A stretch of DNA of 64,000 bases from Lachnospiraceae bacterium. GTDB taxonomy: Bacteria; Bacillota; Clostridia; Lachnospirales; Lachnospiraceae. Below the pieces are notes generated by a model. The model was not told the origin of the DNA. It saw only the letters and a list, made by a program, of their open reading frames with translations, and made no database searches. The stretch is taken from positions 62,001 through 126,000 of the forward strand of contig JAFTWC010000035.1 of NCBI GenBank assembly GCA_017465475.1, written 5' to 3'. Shown piece after piece: positions 32,439 to 42,454 of the stretch. A program made the position numbers and the translations under genes. Within the stretch, counting starts at the first letter, position 1; each line of letters opens with the position of its first letter.

Positions 32439-32467
32439 ATTATAATCATATCTAAAAACAGTGTCAA
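32439..32467 (-). promoter_or_regulatory. Consensus promoter of proC
   Basis: On the minus strand TTGACA (32462-32467), 17 bases and TATAAT (32439-32444), about 95 bases upstream of the proC start. Confidence 0.85.
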
Positions 32468-32495: not shown

Positions 32496-32538
32496 AAAGA
32501 ACGTACCTTTCTCGGATACCGTAAAAGATACGTTCTTT
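32496..32538 (-). terminator. Hairpin after the giant M56 gene
   Basis: A 10-bp perfect stem AAAGAACGTA / TACGTTCTTT with a roughly 23-base loop, followed on the minus strand by CTCTTTGAT. The T-tract is poor, so it is a probable but not classical terminator. Confidence 0.55.
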
Positions 32539-32588: not shown

Positions 32589-35500
32589 TCAATACATACT
32601 CTCTGTATTTTCCTCGACAAAAATCTTATGGAAGGACGCACATGCCTTGACCCGCTCAAACTGCTCCGCATCTACGGAACTGAATGGCTTGATTCCATGT
32701 CCGTCAAACACCTCCGGAGAGCCTGTTCCGTACTCTATGGTAGTATCTTCCGAATAGTTTTCGGAATAATACGCCTTATAAAGTGTATAGAAATCACTTA
32801 GAGTAGTTTCAAATACTTCGGTATTGTTAATAATTAAGTATACATATGGATATAAATTCTTCTTCATGTCACAGGCGGAAACAATGGCTTCTATCCGAAG
32901 GTCATCTCCGTAACCGTTTGCCTTTAAATCAGAATAAATAAAAGAAACAGCTTCTGTATAATCAACTTCTTCTTCATAGGAAGGTCTCTTTACTGCCGGT
33001 ACATAAAGTTCATCGCTTCCGATACTAACAACTTTACCGTTTTTTATTTGTTCCTTCATTTCAGCTGTATTTTGCGAAACTACTCGAACCGGAGTATCCG
33101 TTAGGAAATATGCATCCGGATCAAACAGAACCCAATGCTCTGTTTCATTGAGCACGGTTTTTAAATACACACGCTTTGCATAGGACTCCGCTGTGCAATA
33201 AATCTCATAGGAGCACTGATAGCTTTCCTGAGGATACACCGACGGATATAACCATGCCTGATGATTCAGGTACTCTAAAAACAATGACTTCAGTTCTTCG
33301 TAATTATAGCGTGCCGGCAATCCCATCACAAGCTCCGGCACCGCTCCTGCCATCAGCACCTTTCCGTCTTTTGTAATACCGATTGTCACTTTGCCGTTTG
33401 TATTTACTGCAATCACATCAGTCCAGTCATCCACGTCACACTGGCCCACATCGCTTCTTCCCGGGCAAACCGCAACTACCGTACCGTCGCCTTTTAAGCC
33501 CACCACCGTTTCTTTTGCCACTGCAAGTTTTACGATACCGTTCCACTTTTCCTTTGTGTTAATTAAATAGTCCAGTTGTATTCCTTCGGAAATTACGGTA
33601 CCGTCCTCGCATAGCCCAACTAAAACGGTGGCTCTTGCCGCATCATCTTCACCAAAACAAATCTGTTTTAATTTTTTCGGCCATGTATCCAGCTTTTTCT
33701 TACGAAGCACATCACTGATTTCCGTCATTACCACGGTTCCGTCAGCTTTGATTCCCGCCAGGATACCGTTTACATCCTTAGTAATCTGTACCGCACCCTC
33801 CAATTCTTCCTGTTCTCCGTAATGATATACGGTGCCGTCTTCAAAAAGTACCGTATAAGAACTGTACGGATAGGTAGAGAACACTTGCTTTACACCGGAC
33901 ATTCCCTCAAAGTCTCTTGCAATCCAATCCTGCGGTCCGCCAAGGCCATAGGTTCCCCCTGCCGCCATTGCTTCCTCTGCGGCTTTCCTTGTATATTCTG
34001 CCAGTTCTTCCGCTGTCATGTGATAAGATACCGAAAGTCTTCCTTCTTCATCAATTGTCACCAGACGCCACGGGTCTGTTCCTAGTGCCTTGTATGTTTT
34101 GGATGTGTCAATACCTCCCGTAGCTCCCACCGGATCATATTCATCCTTATGCGAGGTATCATACAGCACATGCAGCTTCCCTTCTTCATCCAAATAGGCT
34201 GCATACTTATCTCCGATTGCAATGGAGATGTTCGTGCTTTCGATTTCATCTGTCAAATCATCTGCAACCGACGGTATATCTACAATTCCCACTGATGAAC
34301 CATTTGAATTTCCAGTTAACCCTGACAAATCCACCCAAATAGCCGGTCGAAGCAGTGCCTCTACTGTTTCATATTCATGACCGGTTCCGTCAGTTCTAAC
34401 GGTACCTTCCTTCGTCACCCATGTTTTATACATATTAGTTCCTTTGGATCGTAACAGCCATTTCGTTTGGATACCGTCCCAGTCATCATTTTCACAATCA
34501 CTGTACATCCAGGCATCGATTCCGTACATTGGAACAGGAATCGTCAACCTTGCCTCTTTATCCTTAAAGTACCGTGTTCCGTCCTGTGCTTTCCCTTCCA
34601 AAACCTCCGATTCACTGAGTAAAAATACATAGTCCTCGGTAACGATATCGATACCGGTATCATTCGGAGTTTTGATGGCAGTTTTCACGATTTTCTCCCG
34701 TTCCTTAGGCGAAAAGGCATCCACGTAAAAAAATTCATTCAATTCTCTTCTTACTCCGGATTCCTCCCATGTACCATGCTGATAATACCAATAGTATTCT
34801 AAACCAAATCTGCTAAGAAGAAGCGCCTTATCCCCTACACGGTCCAGTACAATCCATTCCAACGGTTCCTTGCCGTTAGAAAAATCAAAGTCCTGTTCGT
34901 AAGAACCGAATACAACCGAGGTTCCCACAGCAGCATTCGCTAAAGCTACCTTCGGCTTGTCTGCCTGCTCCGGCATACTCCAAGTTACTCCGCCATCTTC
35001 GGAAAAATAACAACTGCTATGGCAACTGGTTCCGACCTTGTTAAAATAGCATACCACATACTCATCATCTTCCGGTATTTTAATTGCTGCGAGTTCTTCC
35101 GCATTGGTCTCAAAGTCCTTGGAAACCAGACTCCATCTCTCTCCACCGTCGGTACTGCGGTATATATGATACCGGGTAATATCTCCGGTGGTTTCCTGTG
35201 GTACAAAGGCAATACTGTTAAAGTCTTCCCATTTGATTTTCACGTTTTGCTTCGGAAGAGTTATCTCCTTTCCGTCAACAGTAATCGTCACGGAAAATTT
35301 CGGTTCATGTACATAATGCAGTACCGCACAATTCTTTACATGCTCCAACTGCACTTGATCCATGTCTGCAAGTTTTTTTATGCTTCTGCCGTCAAATTCG
35401 TCCGGCATATATACCTGTTCTCCGAAATGATGTTCCAAGGAATGGTCCTTTGTATAGTTGTCATTATAGAAGGTGGTATAGAGCCCTTTGTACTTCGTAA

Positions 35501-38500
35501 AGCTTGTCTCGTACACATAGGAATCGTTGATGATAATGTAGGCATGCGGATACAGCTTCTTTTCCATATCAAACTCAGAAACCCAAGCCTCCAGCTTTAT
35601 GACATCCGTACCCGTTTCATCCTTTAATAAATATCCGTTTTTACAAAGCTCATCGGAAATCAAGGCAATACTTTCTTTATAGCCGTTGGTGTCGAGTTCA
35701 GTATTTTTATGATATTCCGGTGCTTTTGCTGCCGCCACCTTTACTGTATCGGTTCCGAGACGAGTGACAACTCCTGAGGAACGTATACTCTCCACCGATT
35801 CGACATCCATAGGAAGGATTGTAAGCGGTGATTCCTCTTCCAGATATACCGTCGGTGTACACAAATACCAACGTTCCTCCCCGTTTACGTTCGCTTTTAA
35901 ATAAACCCGTTTCATTTTGGAATCGGCGGTACTGTATATCTCAAAAGCACACTCCCACTTTTCCTGGGAATAATCCGCCGGATATAAATAGGCCTGATGA
36001 TTCAGATATTCCAAAAAGGTCTCTTTTACCTCCTTGTACTCATAGCGTTCCGGAAGCTTGGAGGAAAGAAAGAGGGATATTTTCTTATCGCTCTCATTGT
36101 TCTTTTTCTCGTTTTTCTTTGCAATTTTATCCAAATCCCCCAGTTCCACCCAGATGGCCGGACGAACTCCCCTTTCATCATAGCTTGTATTGCCGATGGT
36201 ATTGTTTGCGCCCGTATCAAGGCTTCCGTCAATGGTAATTCCCGCAACGACCAGATGCGGGGCTTCCTTCTTGGTATCGTCCGGTTCATATTCTGTGCGT
36301 GAGGATGCCCGCAGCCAGTAAGCTCCATACGGCATACCGTCAAAATCATATAAACGGTATCCATCTCCATAGTAAATCCACTGGTCCTCCTCGTACACGC
36401 CTCTTGCCATACGCTCGGTATCATTCATAAAATATCCGTCAAAGGTGTATGCTGCGCTTTCCGGTGCCTTTTCCGTATAGAAATAGTCTCCCGACAACAT
36501 ATCCTCCATGGACGGTAAAAACACCTTATCCTCCGTATATTCATAGGTTGCAAAGGTATTCCACGGGTTCCATACGTTTTCCAAAAGAGTCGTGGAAATG
36601 CGTTTCTTTTCCTCGTCATTAAACGCTAAGTCATAAAAGGTTCCGTTCAGCCATTCCCGCAGGGTACAATTCTTCCAGGAGATTTCTTCTTTATATTTAT
36701 GATACGGCATATTTTCCAGTATGTATTTGGAAAGAAGCAATGCCCTTCCGTCCTTTACGTCAAGCACATACCACTCGATAGGCTCTGCACCGTCGCCGGT
36801 ATCCTTATTTTGCTCATAGGTACCAAACTCCACCAAATAGCCCGGTTTTGCCTTTTCCAACGAGACCATATCTTTAAAACGGCCGCTTCCGGTATATAAG
36901 GTATCATTGGAATTCTCTGTTTCCGCCTCCGAATCGGACGCAGAAAGAAGCTCATACTCCGCCTGCTCCAAATCAATCCTTATTGCCGGACGAAGGGCAC
37001 ATCCGCCGTAATTATTGCTTACCTCATGGGAAAGTTCTCCGTAAGTGTTCACTCTGCAAACAGAAGCATAATTGACTCCCAGGGTACGTAATAACCACGG
37101 ACAAGCTTCTGAACCGTCCTCCGTCTTTCCTTCCCATACGCCCTGTGCTTTAGCATAGGCGGTAGCTGTGGTAACGCCGGCTTTATTGCGGTATTTCGAC
37201 TCATTCACCCCCGCTTCCGGTTTATAAATCTGATATAATTCATCAATACTGAGGAGATATACCTTATCTTCGGTAACCGCTCCGTCCTTCACATTGTAAG
37301 ATGCATTGCTATGATTGTCTAATCTTGTGGTAATAATTTGTTCCCGTTCTTTTTCATCGAATGCAATCTCGAAAAACTCCGAATTTAACCAGCTTCGTAA
37401 GGAACAGTCCTCCCAGTAGATGCCCTTCGAACCATCCTCGTGAAACGGCTTTGCATCCAGCCCGTGCTTACTGAGAAGCGTTGCCTTTCCGTCAAATACA
37501 TCCACTACAATCCATTCAATGGGCTCGGCACCGTTTTCCGTCACGTTGTCCTGCTCATAAGTACCGAAGGTAATAATATCTCCGGCCTTCGGTAAATCCT
37601 TCTCCCCTTTCGGATTCGTCAGAAAACAAACCACCATAACAATACAAAGAAGTGCCGATGCCACAATAATCCAAAATGCCGGCTTTTTATACTGTAATAC
37701 GGATTTTACACGACCCTTTACTCCGGTTTCACCGAAGGCTAACGGGCAGGCGGAAATCATTTTTCTGGATACACTGCAATTAATCAGCGCCGTGGAGTAG
37801 TTCTTTTTCCGATCTGCTCCCAGTTCCTTAATGACCTTTTCATCACAGGCATACTCGATGTCCTTACATAAAAGGATATACGCCACCCACAAAAGCGGAT
37901 GAAACCAATAGACACTGAGCAAAAGGAATCCGAGCGGTTTCCATATATGGTCAAACCGCTTTAAATGCGCTCTTTCATGGGCAAGCACAAACTCTCTGTC
38001 TGCCTCATTGATATCCGACGGCAGATAAATCTTCGGTCTGACAATTCCTAAAATAAAGGGACTGTCAATTCGGTCACACACACGTACATTTTTAAAAAAC
38101 GGTGCCGACTCCTTTACCCTTTTATAAATCCGCAAATAGCTGATGGCGGTATACAAAAGCATACAACCGATACCACACAGCCATATCATTGCAAATACTG
38201 CGGATAAATCCGTACGTTTCATGATAAATTCCGTTCCGTTTTCTCCTTGTTCGGTATAGGTAACAGAAAACGGTGTTTCTTTTATGATACTGTCAGCGTT
38301 TCCGGATACTACCTGACCTTCAAGATTATCCTTAGATGCTATGCCCTCCGTTTCTTGATACTCCGCTTCGCCCGATCCATTCAGAGTGCCGATAAACTCC
38401 TCTTCAAATTCCGGTGTACCAATCTCAATAAAATTATCTCCGGCCAGCAGCTCCTTCGGAATCTCCACCGGTTCCGCCTCCTCCGGCAAAGGTTTCTTCT

Positions 38501-38762
38501 CCGAAGGAGTATGTACTGTTTCTTTCTGTAAAAAAACTTCCGGATGAGCTGACTGTTCCACCGGTTCCGCATTCCGTATCAAACTGAAATTACTTTCAAA
38601 GGTCACCGGACACACAAGGCATACTGCTACCATAGCCCAAAGAATCGGAAACAATGCCTTCGGTGCCTTTTTCTTAAACAAAAGACGCACCAATAACACC
38701 GCCAGCACAAGAAAACCTGCGGTTAAACTCATATTTAAAATCTTAATAAAAACTTCTCCCAT
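32589..38762 (-). CDS. Giant BlaR1/MecR1-type M56 membrane sensor with multi-domain extracellular region
   Basis: About 2057 aa; ordinary BlaR1 proteins are near 600. TM1 and TM2 (about 8-57), an acidic loop (60-185), TM3 (188-210) and the M56 metalloprotease core with HERAH (HExxH, about 262-266) and the EYACDE motif (about 303-308) come first. A TM helix spans 363-382. Then follow DUF6273-like modules at about 394-600, 640-875 and 1276-1480 (shared FGTYEQ...EPIEW and LRPAIW motifs). Two copies of an unnamed domain lie at about 901-1155 and 1815-2055. A BNR-like DGGERW/DGGVTW pair is at 1205-1262 and an RCC1-like region at 1515-1808. In the known mechanism such a receptor cleaves BlaI on ligand binding. 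The start ATG has GAGGAGGAG upstream, 5 bases after blaI. The ligand is unknown and there is no penicillin-binding domain. Confidence 0.88.
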   Translation of the reverse strand: MGEVFIKILNMSLTAGFLVLAVLLVRLLFKKKAPKALFPILWAMVAVCLVCPVTFESNFSLIRNAEPVEQSAHPEVFLQKETVHTPSEKKPLPEEAEPVEIPKELLAGDNFIEIGTPEFEEEFIGTLNGSGEAEYQETEGIASKDNLEGQVVSGNADSIIKETPFSVTYTEQGENGTEFIMKRTDLSAVFAMIWLCGIGCMLLYTAISYLRIYKRVKESAPFFKNVRVCDRIDSPFILGIVRPKIYLPSDINEADREFVLAHERAHLKRFDHIWKPLGFLLLSVYWFHPLLWVAYILLCKDIEYACDEKVIKELGADRKKNYSTALINCSVSRKMISACPLAFGETGVKGRVKSVLQYKKPAFWIIVASALLCIVMVVCFLTNPKGEKDLPKAGDIITFGTYEQDNVTENGAEPIEWIVVDVFDGKATLLSKHGLDAKPFHEDGSKGIYWEDCSLRSWLNSEFFEIAFDEKEREQIITTRLDNHSNASYNVKDGAVTEDKVYLLSIDELYQIYKPEAGVNESKYRNKAGVTTATAYAKAQGVWEGKTEDGSEACPWLLRTLGVNYASVCRVNTYGELSHEVSNNYGGCALRPAIRIDLEQAEYELLSASDSEAETENSNDTLYTGSGRFKDMVSLEKAKPGYLVEFGTYEQNKDTGDGAEPIEWYVLDVKDGRALLLSKYILENMPYHKYKEEISWKNCTLREWLNGTFYDLAFNDEEKKRISTTLLENVWNPWNTFATYEYTEDKVFLPSMEDMLSGDYFYTEKAPESAAYTFDGYFMNDTERMARGVYEEDQWIYYGDGYRLYDFDGMPYGAYWLRASSRTEYEPDDTKKEAPHLVVAGITIDGSLDTGANNTIGNTSYDERGVRPAIWVELGDLDKIAKKNEKKNNESDKKISLFLSSKLPERYEYKEVKETFLEYLNHQAYLYPADYSQEKWECAFEIYSTADSKMKRVYLKANVNGEERWYLCTPTVYLEEESPLTILPMDVESVESIRSSGVVTRLGTDTVKVAAAKAPEYHKNTELDTNGYKESIALISDELCKNGYLLKDETGTDVIKLEAWVSEFDMEKKLYPHAYIIINDSYVYETSFTKYKGLYTTFYNDNYTKDHSLEHHFGEQVYMPDEFDGRSIKKLADMDQVQLEHVKNCAVLHYVHEPKFSVTITVDGKEITLPKQNVKIKWEDFNSIAFVPQETTGDITRYHIYRSTDGGERWSLVSKDFETNAEELAAIKIPEDDEYVVCYFNKVGTSCHSSCYFSEDGGVTWSMPEQADKPKVALANAAVGTSVVFGSYEQDFDFSNGKEPLEWIVLDRVGDKALLLSRFGLEYYWYYQHGTWEESGVRRELNEFFYVDAFSPKEREKIVKTAIKTPNDTGIDIVTEDYVFLLSESEVLEGKAQDGTRYFKDKEARLTIPVPMYGIDAWMYSDCENDDWDGIQTKWLLRSKGTNMYKTWVTKEGTVRTDGTGHEYETVEALLRPAIWVDLSGLTGNSNGSSVGIVDIPSVADDLTDEIESTNISIAIGDKYAAYLDEEGKLHVLYDTSHKDEYDPVGATGGIDTSKTYKALGTDPWRLVTIDEEGRLSVSYHMTAEELAEYTRKAAEEAMAAGGTYGLGGPQDWIARDFEGMSGVKQVFSTYPYSSYTVLFEDGTVYHYGEQEELEGAVQITKDVNGILAGIKADGTVVMTEISDVLRKKKLDTWPKKLKQICFGEDDAARATVLVGLCEDGTVISEGIQLDYLINTKEKWNGIVKLAVAKETVVGLKGDGTVVAVCPGRSDVGQCDVDDWTDVIAVNTNGKVTIGITKDGKVLMAGAVPELVMGLPARYNYEELKSLFLEYLNHQAWLYPSVYPQESYQCSYEIYCTAESYAKRVYLKTVLNETEHWVLFDPDAYFLTDTPVRVVSQNTAEMKEQIKNGKVVSIGSDELYVPAVKRPSYEEEVDYTEAVSFIYSDLKANGYGDDLRIEAIVSACDMKKNLYPYVYLIINNTEVFETTLSDFYTLYKAYYSENYSEDTTIEYGTGSPEVFDGHGIKPFSSVDAEQFERVKACASFHKIFVEENTESMY

Positions 38763-38767
38763 CACTT

Positions 38768-39133
38768 CTACTCCTCCTCATATTCCGCCACCATACGCCG
38801 TAGCTCGTCAACCTCCGTTTTTGATAATTTCCCTCTTCTTGACGTAAATGCCGCCAAAAAGGCCGGTAAAGACCCTGCAAAGGTATCCTGTACAAACTGC
38901 TCACTTTGCATTGCAAAAAACTCGTCACGCTTGATTTTGGACGTTACAATACAATTATTGTTTTCAAAAATCCCCTTATCACAAAGACGTTTTAACACCG
39001 TATACGTCGTTGACTTTTTCCAGTCTAACTTCTCCCCGGCAAGCCGTACCAGTTCTCTGGAATGAACCGGCTCCAACTCCCATATCATATCGGCAAACTG
39101 TGATTCCACCGCTCCCATTTGTAATTCAGCCAT
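38768..39133 (-). CDS. blaI: BlaI/MecI-family transcriptional repressor
   Basis: A 121-aa winged-helix repressor: LGAVESQF-like N-terminus (GAVESQFADMIWEL), KKSTTYTVLKRLCDKG recognition helix region and an acidic C-terminal dimerisation part. It represses by binding dyad operators and is inactivated by proteolysis through the partner M56 receptor encoded 5 bases downstream. A large inverted repeat overlaps its own promoter, fitting autorepression of the two-gene operon. The ribosome site is AAAGGAGGG. No beta-lactamase or other obvious target gene is next to it. Confidence 0.92.
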   Translation of the reverse strand: MAELQMGAVESQFADMIWELEPVHSRELVRLAGEKLDWKKSTTYTVLKRLCDKGIFENNNCIVTSKIKRDEFFAMQSEQFVQDTFAGSLPAFLAAFTSRRGKLSKTEVDELRRMVAEYEEE

Positions 39134-39149
39134 ATGTTCCCTCCTTTTA

Positions 39150-39197
39150 CACTCGACATCACGTAGATTGTAACTTCAGTCTACATGATGTGGAGTG
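39150..39197. promoter_or_regulatory. Candidate BlaI operator (inverted repeat over the blaI promoter)
   Basis: Two 21-base arms (39150-39170 and 39177-39197) around a 6-base centre match at 18 of 21 positions as an inverted repeat. Each arm contains its own small dyad, ACATCACGT (39156-39164) and ACATGATGT (39184-39192). This resembles the ACA/TGT-type BlaI/MecI operators. It covers the -10 and most of the spacer of the blaI promoter. Confidence 0.75.
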
Positions 39198-39206
39198 TTT
39201 TGTCAA
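39178..39206 (-). promoter_or_regulatory. Promoter of the blaI-M56 operon
   Basis: On the minus strand TTGACA (39201-39206), 17 bases and TAGACT (39178-39183), buried in the inverted repeat, about 45 bases before the blaI start. Confidence 0.75.
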
Positions 39207-39351: not shown

Positions 39352-39732
39352 CTACTTCAACAACTCATCCGTAAGCCGCAATACCTCCGGTGCAATTTTT
39401 TCACGTTCCTTTTTTGTGACCTGTAAATATACCGGATATGCAATTGCCACTACTACAATCCCAAGCAGCCCAATCAAGATTCCCGGCACAAACCACGTAG
39501 TCTGCCATACCATAACGCAACACATTCCCAATCCGAGAATCAGTGTTCCGATGACACCTACAACAATAGACAAAAGCGTTCCCTTTTTTGTAGCACTCTC
39601 GTCCAGTCGGCGCAAATAAGCCATTTTGTCTTCCTTCGGTTCTTCATATTTGCTTCGGATATTCTTAATTTCCTCCTGTTGCTTTGCGGAATAAGAATAT
39701 TGAAATCTCTCCGCTTTATTGTTCTGCTCCAT
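39352..39732 (-). CDS. Small two-TM protein of unknown function (paralogue 1)
   Basis: A 126-aa protein with a charged N-terminal helix (QQEEIKNIRSKYEEPKEDKM), two TM helices (about 52-75 and 80-104) and a charged C-terminal tail. It is similar throughout to the 121-aa protein at 45968-46333: both have KIRSxY-like helices, a Leu/Gly-rich first TM and an AYPVY / NYPIY motif after the second TM. It is the last gene of the response-regulator operon and overlaps its upstream neighbour by 17 bases. The ribosome site is AAGGAG. No family was recognised. Confidence 0.75.
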   Translation of the reverse strand: MEQNNKAERFQYSYSAKQQEEIKNIRSKYEEPKEDKMAYLRRLDESATKKGTLLSIVVGVIGTLILGLGMCCVMVWQTTWFVPGILIGLLGIVVVAIAYPVYLQVTKKEREKIAPEVLRLTDELLK

Positions 39733-40645
39733 TTTGCTTACTCCTTAACTTTTTTATTTCCTTTGCCGACTTCACAATCATCAAGCAAGACATACTCACA
39801 ACCGCCACACTGACACCGCCACCGGTGGCAGCAATCAAAATCTGCTTTTGCAATTCTTCCATTTCTGCTCCGAATTCCGTTAACATGGCTGTTTCCAACG
39901 AAAGCATGGACACCAACGCTGCCGACAAAGCTATCATTTTTGCCATCAGCATCACCGGACTGTTGTATTTCCGATACTTAATCACATTTATAATGGCATA
40001 TATGGTCACATAAAAAGTATACAGTGCCACAACATAAATTAGGATTCCATGATAAAAGAATCCTCTTCCTTCATACAATATCATCAAAACTGCACCGGAA
40101 AGTATGACATTCACAAACAGTAATATAACCGCACAAAGGATTGCCCGATATAACTCTCCCTTACGATTTGTTCCGATCTCGTGCTTTGCCTTATAACGCA
40201 GTAAAAGAAAACGCATCCATGCAAGAATTCCGTAATAGGCTGCTAAAATCACAAACCACATGGAATCATATAAGAAATACATCACTACATTGACACTGAC
40301 ATAAAGTATATTAACCATTAATGTGGCATATAACGACACTTGATTTTTAAACACAGCATCCGTCATATATCGATTACCATATTTGCTGTTATAAATCCAT
40401 GTTTTTATACGTTTATACTGTTTCGGAAAGGTGATTCCGCAGGCAATTCCCAAGACGGAAACAGTATAAAACGATAGTACATAAATACCGTATGCCACCG
40501 GATGGGTCTCCAAATGCTTTATAAATACAAGCAGCAATAATATTCCACTTACTACAGTTAATAATACAATCAGCCATACAGGAGGAAACAGCCATTTTTT
40601 CCATTGCTTCTTCTCTTCCGTTTTATGATTTACATTCTGTTCCAT
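39716..40645 (-). CDS. Polytopic membrane protein of unknown function
   Basis: A 309-aa integral membrane protein with roughly 7-8 hydrophobic helices and a short basic cytoplasmic start. No catalytic or transporter motif was recognised. It starts 3 bases after the histidine kinase stop with GGAGAGAG as ribosome site, and its 3' end overlaps the small two-TM gene. The tight coupling suggests that it works with the two-component system, perhaps as an accessory sensor or effector; this is inference. Confidence 0.75.
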   Translation of the reverse strand: MEQNVNHKTEEKKQWKKWLFPPVWLIVLLTVVSGILLLLVFIKHLETHPVAYGIYVLSFYTVSVLGIACGITFPKQYKRIKTWIYNSKYGNRYMTDAVFKNQVSLYATLMVNILYVSVNVVMYFLYDSMWFVILAAYYGILAWMRFLLLRYKAKHEIGTNRKGELYRAILCAVILLFVNVILSGAVLMILYEGRGFFYHGILIYVVALYTFYVTIYAIINVIKYRKYNSPVMLMAKMIALSAALVSMLSLETAMLTEFGAEMEELQKQILIAATGGGVSVAVVSMSCLMIVKSAKEIKKLRSKQNGAEQ

Positions 40646-40648
40646 TGC

Positions 40649-41722
40649 TTACTCTCTCCGAATCTTTACCGTAAACGTTGTTCCTACGCCCGGAACACTC
40701 TCCACCCTGATTTCTCCCTGCATAATGTCAATGACACGCTTCACAAGGGCAAGACCAAGGCCGTTTCCTTCCGTAGCATGAGACGTATCTCCCTGATAAA
40801 ATTTATCAAAAATATGGGCACCCACCTCCGGTGACATCCCGCACCCGGTATCCGCCACCGTAACAATTGCATGATGCTCTGTGGTGTTTAGTTTCAGCGA
40901 TACCGTACCTCCGTCATCTGTAAACTTAAAGGCATTGGAAAGTAAGTTATTCCATACAAGGGTCAACAGTTCCTGATCCGCAGTTACCGTTACTCCGTCT
41001 TCCAACTCTGTATCAATCTCAATATTTCGTCGTTCCCATACATCTTCAAATTGAAGCAGGCACTCACATAATTGCTCGCTTAAATCATATTCTGCTGTCT
41101 TTGGATAGATTTGTTGATTTTCCAGACGATTCAGCTTTAACATATTTGTCATCATATTTGCCATTCGTCTGGCGCCATCGGTAACGCCTTTGGCGTATTC
41201 CATCCGTTTTTCATCAGAAAGCCCCGGTGTCTGTAATAAGGTCCCGAAATTTTGCATCACTGCCAAAGGGGTTTTCATTTCATGCGACACATTTGCCACA
41301 AAATCTGTTCGTAGTGTTTCCACTCCGGACAATTCCGTAGCCATCTGGTTAAAGCAATGGATAATCTCATTAAACTTATCATTAGCTCCCACACCCTTCA
41401 TCGGTTTAATCCGTACCGAAAAGTCCCCCTGTGTCATCTGTTCCGCCGCTTCGGTAATCCGTCGCACCGGACGATCTACCGTTACTTTTCTTCGGAGCAT
41501 ATCAATCACTGCAAACAAAACACTTAACACAATTACATTCACAAAAGTCAATTTTGCAGCCACATTCAGATTTTCCGTATTTAAGAGAAGTCCCATGTTA
41601 TCGGACATAATTCGAATAAACAATATCAGACAACAGGTAATCGGAAATGCAACTACAAGAAAAAACACCGTATAGCGACTTATGGCTTTTAAGCATTTAT
41701 GAATCCGTTTTTCATGCTTCAT
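40649..41722 (-). CDS. Sensor histidine kinase
   Basis: A 357-aa membrane kinase. Two TM helices (about 16-38 and 56-76) leave only a short extracytoplasmic loop, so it is an intramembrane-sensing type. HAMP (77-135), HisKA with His147 in NVSHEMKTPL, and HATPase with NLLSNAFKF (N box), DTGCGMSP (G1) and GNGLGLALVK (G2) follow. It overlaps the response regulator stop by 4 bases. The signal is probably membrane or envelope state, inferred from the short loop and the neighbours. Confidence 0.93.
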   Translation of the reverse strand: MKHEKRIHKCLKAISRYTVFFLVVAFPITCCLILFIRIMSDNMGLLLNTENLNVAAKLTFVNVIVLSVLFAVIDMLRRKVTVDRPVRRITEAAEQMTQGDFSVRIKPMKGVGANDKFNEIIHCFNQMATELSGVETLRTDFVANVSHEMKTPLAVMQNFGTLLQTPGLSDEKRMEYAKGVTDGARRMANMMTNMLKLNRLENQQIYPKTAEYDLSEQLCECLLQFEDVWERRNIEIDTELEDGVTVTADQELLTLVWNNLLSNAFKFTDDGGTVSLKLNTTEHHAIVTVADTGCGMSPEVGAHIFDKFYQGDTSHATEGNGLGLALVKRVIDIMQGEIRVESVPGVGTTFTVKIRRE

Positions 41723-42390
41723 TTAATCACCGCCTTATACCCCAAACCGTGTACCGTTACAATCTCAAAATCCTCACAGGCAGAAAGTTTTCCTCTAAGC
41801 TTTGTCATATACACATCCACGGCCCTGGTTGTCGTCTCTGTGTCCACGTCCCAAAATTCGTCCATTAGCTGCATTCTGGTAAATGTCTTTTTGGGATAAG
41901 AAAGAAGCTTGTACAAAATGCTGAATTCTCTGTTTGTCATGGATATTTCTTCCTCATTCAGGTAAGCCGTATGTTCATCCGCATCCATTACAAAACTGCC
42001 GATTTCAAGCTTTCTGCTGGCTGCAATCTTGGCACGACGAAGAAGTGCACCAATACGCAAAAACAACTCATCCAAATCAATTGGTTTTACCATATAATCA
42101 TCTACACCAATACGGAAGCCTCTTTGCTTGGATGCCATGTCATCCCTTGCTGTCATAAACAAAATCGGAATGTTTTCGTTCTGGGTCCGAACAGTTCTGG
42201 CAAACTCAAATCCATCCGTTCCCGGCATCATGATATCCGAAATAATCAGGTCGAACATTGTCTCATATAAAGCATCATAGGCTTCGTTAGCGTTTAAACA
42301 TCCCACCGCTTCGTATCCACTATGATTTAAAAAGGAACAAACAGTTTTGTTTAAATCTTTGTCATCCTCAACCACTAAAATCTTAAACAT
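41719..42390 (-). CDS. OmpR/PhoB-family response regulator
   Basis: A 223-aa DNA-binding regulator. The receiver domain has the acidic pair EDD (8-10), the phospho-acceptor Asp52 in IISDIMMPG and the conserved Lys in DDYMVKP. The C-terminal winged helix includes TNREFSILYKLLSYP and TRAVDVYMTKLRGKL. The start ATG has ACGGAGG upstream; an upstream in-frame reading to 42444 lacks a site. Direct-repeat boxes spaced 11 bases lie in front of the gene, and similar boxes lie before 44341 and 46333, suggesting autoregulation and control of those genes. Confidence 0.93.
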   Translation of the reverse strand: MFKILVVEDDKDLNKTVCSFLNHSGYEAVGCLNANEAYDALYETMFDLIISDIMMPGTDGFEFARTVRTQNENIPILFMTARDDMASKQRGFRIGVDDYMVKPIDLDELFLRIGALLRRAKIAASRKLEIGSFVMDADEHTAYLNEEEISMTNREFSILYKLLSYPKKTFTRMQLMDEFWDVDTETTTRAVDVYMTKLRGKLSACEDFEIVTVHGLGYKAVIK

Positions 42391-42454
42391 GAGAAATCCT
42401 CCGTTTCCATATGGTTTTATCGCTTGATGTCTCATACCTACCATACCATAGAAA

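Follow-up and report, generated by a model that had tools for sequence, protein, structure and literature searches.

A 64,000-nucleotide stretch of a Lachnospiraceae genome (NCBI GenBank assembly GCA_017465475.1, contig JAFTWC010000035.1, positions 62,001 to 126,000 of the forward strand; hereafter the window) encodes, next to a blaI repressor gene, a 2057-residue receptor of the BlaR1/MecR1 (M56) type. BlaR1-type signaling is known mainly as a penicillin alarm. In the window receptor, the place of the penicillin sensor is taken by a mosaic of about 1670 residues, in which two head layouts of sister genomes are combined. On balance, we favor the reading that it is a working BlaI antirepressor, the sensor head of which would have been exchanged by recombination and would recognize a macromolecular or surface ligand. 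A BlaR1 base with large exchangeable lectin-like heads at one locus would amount to a general one-step receptor chassis. Furthermore, the natural head swaps leave repressor and operator nearly unchanged, and by this the signal transfer from outside to the protease would become directly testable.

A BlaR1-Type Signaling Base

The receptor gene is a single intact open reading frame (ORF) that starts at an ATG one codon after an in-frame GTG, and only 5 bp separate the end of blaI from this ATG. The M56 match is strong (Pfam, E 8.8e-46). In a phmmer alignment, H262, E263, H266, D271, E303, D307, and Y322 pair with BlaR1 H201, E202, H205, D210, E242, D246, and Y261, residues whose roles are described in PMC9834060. 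Residues of the same spacing, together with an arginine matching R351, are invariant in 30 M56 proteins of the family (alignment A7; spacing judged by eye). This sample comprises 30 of the 31 M56 ORFs from 30 family loci, a 172-residue piece being omitted and four ORFs being cut by locus ends, and it favors strong M56 matches. F343 is only a candidate for the autocleavage phenylalanine, because its distance to R351 is 8 residues vs 10 in BlaR1. In the alignment of the two repressors, BlaI Phe96 is the counterpart of S. aureus Phe102, the residue following the known cut.

With its intact protease core, its blaI partner and a double dyad at the promoter, the receptor is predicted to be a membrane antirepressor of the BlaR1/MecR1 type. 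The initial annotation, made from the letters of the sequence, had described an M56 receptor with HExxH and a coupled blaI gene, and this description holds. Only the extent has to be corrected: the M56 part is not the N-terminal third but the first ~385 residues, a fifth of the protein.

The Mosaic Head

Hydropathy places the last hydrophobic helix at residues 363-381, and therefore the residues from 385 on occupy the place of the BlaR1 penicillin sensor. A penicillin-binding domain was not detected, as Transpeptidase is absent up to E 1 from the Pfam scan of the 2057-residue protein, and the NCBIfam equivalog cut-off for BlaR1 is missed by far (73.9 bits vs 400). DUF6273 (PF19789), on the other hand, passes its gathering score (219.1 bits vs 23.5; E 4.5e-65) in three stretches, which are 32-46% identical to each other. 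The three DUF6273 modules of the initial annotation are thereby recovered, and so is its duplicated unnamed domain. The latter, here called C, recurs with 40% identity (residues 899-1149 vs 1811-2045; E 3.6e-64), and a profile search revealed no relative of it among solved structures up to E 5.

Two further modules had been suggested, and they appear in weaker form. The BNR-like stretch of ~120 residues does contain two SxDGGxxW Asp-boxes (residues 1203 and 1254), with a BNR score below the Pfam cut-off (19.5 bits vs 27); Sortilin-Vps10 likewise remains below its own (22.2 vs 33). The RCC1-like stretch does not reach the RCC1_2 cut-off here (12.5 bits vs 22), but passes it in the orthologue of genome G004 (32.5 bits).

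Two Layouts in One Receptor

All 10 genomes of the genus match some part of the protein. An orthologous receptor is present in seven, the window's own included, and was not found in G003, G006, and G009 (86-94% complete). The orthologous blaI-M56 pairs share their locus in six of the nine other genomes, and their heads differ. In all seven genomes the same order of proC, a NUDIX gene, an integrase-family gene, and a DAHP-synthase gene is kept downstream, either adjoining the receptor directly or, in type B (see below), beyond a gap of 2.9-3.1 kb. Identity to the window is 94-98% for BlaI and 74-80% for the M56 catalytic part.

Two types of head can be distinguished. Type A receptors (G005, G007, G008; 1454-1527 residues) have the order DUF6273-DUF6273-C-BNR-DUF6273. 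Type B receptors (G001, G004; 1823-1826 residues; G002 has type-B pieces on two contigs) have heads in which an unnamed stretch is followed by RCC1-C-BNR and, last, by a DUF6273-like domain not recognized by Pfam. The unnamed stretch, ~520 residues between base and RCC1, is leucine-rich-repeat-like by eye and has no Pfam match; the last domain is 36-38% identical to DUF6273 copy c of the window protein in BLAST. The window protein carries the entire type-A head, followed by the RCC1-C part of type B. The mosaic character that had been claimed is thus even more pronounced, since it unites the layouts of sister genomes.

The best match per 60-residue step (residues 1-2040) follows the same division. 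Type B leads at 1-240 and 301-360, with G005 (type A) ahead by two points at 241-300; type A leads at 361-1500, with type-B G002 drawing level at 1201-1260; and type B leads again at 1501-2040, the changes at residues ~360 and ~1500 being sharp. In a tree of C domains, C1 groups with G005 (0.99) and C2 with type B (0.98). C2 is 57-58% identical to the type-B C over the full domain, and the RCC1-like stretch (residues 1500-1785) is 69% identical to G001 and G004 and 79% identical to the portion found in G002. The base itself is 82-83% identical to type B vs 75-77% to type A.

A short out-of-frame sequence across the stop codon can be aligned to the ends of the G001, G004, and G005 genes (scores 48, 43, and 37; 0 of 300 plain shuffles as good in each case), while the alignments to the ends of G007 and G008 are not significant (55/300 and 8/300 shuffles as good). 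The spacer past it resembles G002 (score 103, 0/300 shuffles). Judged from these alignments, the gene has lost a DUF6273-like end, and the remnant is its scar. It is likely that the unnamed stretch of a type-B receptor was replaced by the type-A head and that a deletion later removed the last part of this receptor. Alternatively, a type-A receptor may have gained the tail of type B, or a long ancestor may have undergone differential loss.

Exchange among Relatives

Traces of exchange are also seen between relatives of one type. In segments whose limits were set after viewing the profile, the nucleotide difference between the type-A receptors of G008 and G007 is 2.6% (residues 1-400), 3.3% (401-800), 14.5% (801-917), 5.1% (918-1430), and 31.9% (1431-1520). 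Each of the two peaks coincides with the C-terminal part of a DUF6273 domain. Within 120 nt, the differences number up to 54, vs at most 21 in 500 shuffles. Since blaI is 96% identical between these genomes and three flanking genes only 86-89% (L037/L038), the operon itself has probably moved between the two species. Between the type-B receptors of G004 and G001, the nucleotide blocks of residues 1-440 are 96-100% identical; beyond a sharp edge at residue 440, most head blocks are 76-94% identical, with near-identical blocks at 881-920, 1561-1600, and in the last ~60 residues. For this pair, blaI is 94% and two flanking genes are 87% identical.

Diversification by a diversity-generating retroelement (DGR) was also considered and is not favored, as no DGR-type reverse transcriptase was identified and the codon-position pattern does not support it. 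RVT_1 has no match in the window's own genome (88.8% complete), and the search did not extend to template/variable repeat (TR/VR) pairs. Among the 10 genomes, G003, G004, G007, and G008 have one RVT_1 match each, those of G003 and G004 being unclassified. The reverse transcriptases of G007 and G008 carry QGxxxSP, which differs from the DGR motif. In the block of greatest divergence, 20 of 40 third codon positions differ vs 29 of 80 other positions, that is, at least as often per site.

Operator and Regulon

Dyads have an operator role in BlaR1 systems. Upstream of blaI, an imperfect dyad with two 22-nt arms (86% complementary) overlaps a promoter-like site, one of three in the region vs 0.9 expected from shuffles. 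The operator is present 5' of blaI in all seven genomes aligned. With fixed spacing and up to 3 mismatches, one site is found in five of the 10 genus genomes (G000, G001, G002, G004, G005; control 0), a pattern that misses G007 and G008, in which the spacing is 2 nt shorter. Two perfect 13-nt dyads occur in none of the 10. When only one 15-nt dyad is required and 2 mismatches are allowed, there are 39 forward and 29 reverse matches vs 25 and 35 in the control, so that no regulon is visible outside the blaI-M56 operons, nor a separate response gene.

The window's own genome has four M56 proteins. Paralogous blaI-M56 pairs of the genus (L042, L043, L046, L053) have other heads, with a weak Big_14, a DUF4825, or a short unnamed part, and such pairs carry their own dyads, as judged by eye. 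In G007, the sites before two of them (contigs C7 and C9) are a perfect match to the same 15-mer, which suggests that the pairs may cross-talk.

Distribution

M56 matches are present in 132 of 200 family genomes. Among 150 of the matches listed, the window's own not among them, the M56 frames have a median length of 627 residues and the longest has 1035; among the matches listed in a class search, they reach 1210. Seven of the 30 sampled family proteins contain a Transpeptidase domain, and one each DUF4825, DUF5301, DUF4830, Germane, DUF4829, and PPC. DUF6273, BNR, and RCC1 are absent from this Pfam tally, and the modules are therefore not a common property of the M56 proteins of the group, a concern that had been raised at the outset. 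Of 31 DUF6273 ORFs in loci L062-L088, only the G008 orthologue also has M56 (others could be hidden by the 1.5-kb flanks). In 391 class genomes, only the window's protein spans both M56 and DUF6273 among the matches listed, and the three class-level rows reaching past M56 that were checked (G449, G661, G394) contain M56 only, without DUF6273.

Two of 299 family genomes contain domain C, and both belong to this genus. In a collection of 84,980 species, the domain is found at seven loci (77 pattern matches), namely in six receptors and one lipoprotein-like protein. A 333-residue lipoprotein-like protein (by eye) of G006 (L050:5608-6609) has a C domain alone, with 29-32% identity, so that C exists outside the receptor too. 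G007 encodes a 929-residue protein (L049:4334-7123) with TPR, DUF6273, and BspA-type LRR_5 after one membrane segment. No other M56 receptors with large non-penicillin heads were found among the papers listed in literature searches at the level of titles and abstract openings, most subscription journals lying outside these. The lectin-headed BlaR1-type receptor is a variation on the known BlaR1 plan, seen only in this genus.

Proposed Mechanism and Alternatives

The replacement of the penicillin sensor by a patchwork, together with the differently shuffled patchworks of relatives at the same locus, indicates that the receptor probably senses a surface or polymer rather than penicillin. A ligand other than a beta-lactam had been suggested from the beginning. 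The part of this claim that concerns a BlaR1-type receptor devoid of a penicillin sensor stands; a polymer or surface ligand is plausible by analogy, since DUF6273-like domains are reported to be C-type-lectin-like adhesin domains. In the reading that we favor, the ligand outside the cell, a macromolecule or a surface, would be bound by these domains, with the BNR-, RCC1-, and C-modules as further binding surfaces or as a stalk. This would alter the coupling that runs through the first extracellular loop (EL1) and the final membrane helix; the zinc protease on the cytoplasmic side would then cut BlaI at Phe96, and the blaI-M56 operon would be derepressed. Selection for new ligands may drive the exchange of heads on a conserved base.

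Several observations weigh against a working antirepressor with an exchanged head. The phmmer alignment to solved BlaR1 (8exs/8exp) is weak (E 0.04-0.08), and the combined A+B layout is present in one genome only, which is 88.8% complete. The M56 tree places the base with type-A G005 (support 0.69) despite its higher identity to type B. The terminal DUF6273-like domain has no Pfam DUF6273 match in any of three type-B proteins. Finally, in the one- and two-dyad regulon search the operator was located at its own operon only, single-dyad sites elsewhere being at chance level.

A bolder extension, which we put forward tentatively, is that of a diversifying receptor locus. On a constant BlaI-M56 base, recombination between species would swap lectin-type heads and ligand-facing DUF6273 parts. 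Commensal gut bacteria would thereby possess an adaptable sensor for ligands that vary, for example phage, glycans of the host, or the surfaces of rivals. The close relatives of the source bacterium are animal-gut inhabitants, with water deer, water buffalo, and roe deer named for three.

It is rather unlikely, in our opinion, that the head is a product instead of a sensor. The operon would then be a self-inducing switch that displays a large lectin-type adhesin, or sheds it after BlaR1-type autocleavage, and M56 and BlaI would only set the amount. That the sole operator found is at its own promoter would fit such a switch, as would the occurrence of DUF6273 and C in proteins of the genus that are membrane-anchored or lipoprotein-like (L049, L050) and the reported presence of DUF6273 in phage adhesins. 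However, the head sits after the last membrane helix, in the BlaR1 sensor position, and the C. thermocellum regulon discussed below, confined to its own operon, implies that the lack of other targets does not exclude sensing.

A receptor in decay, in which a 3' deletion and an added block broke sensing and the gene is being lost, would account for the remnant at the stop and for C2 being the last module, where type B goes on with BNR and a DUF6273-like domain. Yet 2057 codons without a stop, the retention of catalytic residues and operator, and the equally intact type-A proteins without the second cassette make this improbable. Slightly less credit still is given to a metagenome assembly chimera of two strains, one per type. 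Both types exist in sister genomes, and the layout is known from one genome of 81 contigs; but exact direct repeats within the gene reach no more than 14 nt, the G+C content is even (0.397-0.465 in 600-nt steps), and the frame is open over the join. Since the parts are only 50-79% identical to the nearest type-A and type-B sequences, no strain in the comparison supplies either half. The same-locus orthologues with overlapping layouts likewise disfavor an assembly fusion of several genes, the refutation that had been envisaged. A beta-lactam sensor with decorations, for which the BlaI partner and the Transpeptidase matches of family M56 proteins could be cited, can practically be dismissed in view of the Transpeptidase and BlaR1 scores given above.

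Features and Gene Neighborhood

Table 1. Location of the receptor modules and of the control elements in the window.
Feature	Position	Strand	Basis
M56 receptor, whole ORF, 2057 residues	32589..38762	-	
First two membrane segments, residues 11-62	38577..38732	-	hydropathy and M56 Pfam match
Long first extracellular loop EL1, residues 63-187, closest to type B	38202..38576	-	
M56 catalytic part and last membrane helix, residues 188-384; H262, E263, H266, D271, E303, D307, Y322, R351	37611..38201	-	
HERAH zinc motif, residue 262	37965..37979	-	
DUF6273 copy a, residues 392-600	36963..37589	-	Pfam and self-comparison
DUF6273 copy b, residues 638-888	36099..36851	-	Pfam and self-comparison
Unnamed domain C1, residues 899-1160	35283..36068	-	
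BNR-like stretch, two Asp-boxes, residues 1166-1284, under Pfam cut-off	34911..35267	-	
DUF6273 copy c, residues 1285-1490	34293..34910	-	Pfam and self-comparison
RCC1-like stretch, residues 1500-1785, under Pfam cut-off here	33408..34265	-	
Unnamed domain C2, residues 1811-2052	32607..33332	-	
Out-of-frame remnant of DUF6273-like end, across stop codon	32562..32600	-	alignment to orthologue gene ends
Strong hairpin 3' of receptor gene, terminator-like	32496..32538	-	-22.2 kcal/mol, z -5.5
blaI, 121-residue Penicillinase_R repressor	38768..39133	-	PF03965, E 1.6e-21
Promoter-like site TTGACA-17-TAGACT of blaI	39178..39206	-	10/12 matches
Double-dyad operator ACATCATGTAGA-N12-TCTACGTGATGT over blaI promoter	39149..39198	.	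sequence-level, predicted

The hairpin listed in Table 1 is absent from the terminator scan output, and the Rfam scan of the window was empty. Directly past it, before proC, lies a perfect TTGACA-17-TATAAT promoter-like site (32439-32467). Between the M56 gene and proC, the type-B genomes G001 and G004 have an ORF of 905-907 codons with a membrane-type start (L040:10894-13796; matching gap in L039), a candidate output gene that is absent in the window.

On the other side, 5' of blaI, positions 39352-42444 encode a two-component system and two proteins of 126 and 309 residues. These four genes are common to the window, G005, G001, and G002, where the homologue of the 309-residue protein is split in two. 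Within ~6 kb 5' of blaI, they were not found in G004 and G007, and G008 offers only 1.5 kb upstream; the operon therefore lies at a synteny break.

Comparison with Known Systems

The BlaR1/MecR1-BlaI/MecI systems of S. aureus and B. licheniformis share with the window receptor an M56 core with the HExxH...E residues, a C-terminal ectodomain, and a coupled repressor, as well as, at sequence level, a dyad at the own promoter and a phenylalanine at the repressor cut site. Unlike in these systems, no penicillin-binding sensor was found in the window receptor. Furthermore, EL1 is about 125 residues long, whereas in S. aureus BlaR1 it comprises residues 56-96. In C. thermocellum, the regulon of BlaI_1845 is, as stated in the available part of PMC8457756, its single own operon with a BlaR1 gene, and BlaI targets thus seem similarly confined; that text mentions no lectin-like head.

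DUF6273-like domains of phage adhesins (tentaclins and other DGR targets) are described as C-type-lectin-like in PMC10743442, and variable regions map to the DUF6273 C-terminus in PMC11792537. The receptor resembles these adhesins in its DUF6273-like display domain and in the C-terminal part of DUF6273 that differs patchwise between G008 and G007. Here, however, the domain is fused to a signaling protease, and the variation looks like segment replacement, no DGR-type reverse transcriptase having been identified. Finally, among solved structures, the DUF6273 profile matches the IgA protease chain 9qa6 at its start (E 7.6e-11). We infer that this chain is ThomasA, an IgA protease with a DUF6273 N-terminal domain according to PMC12402451, although the text of that paper does not name 9qa6. 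Unlike the window receptor, it is a secreted M64 protease without M56 or repressor; what both have in common is DUF6273 on a surface protein of gut bacteria.

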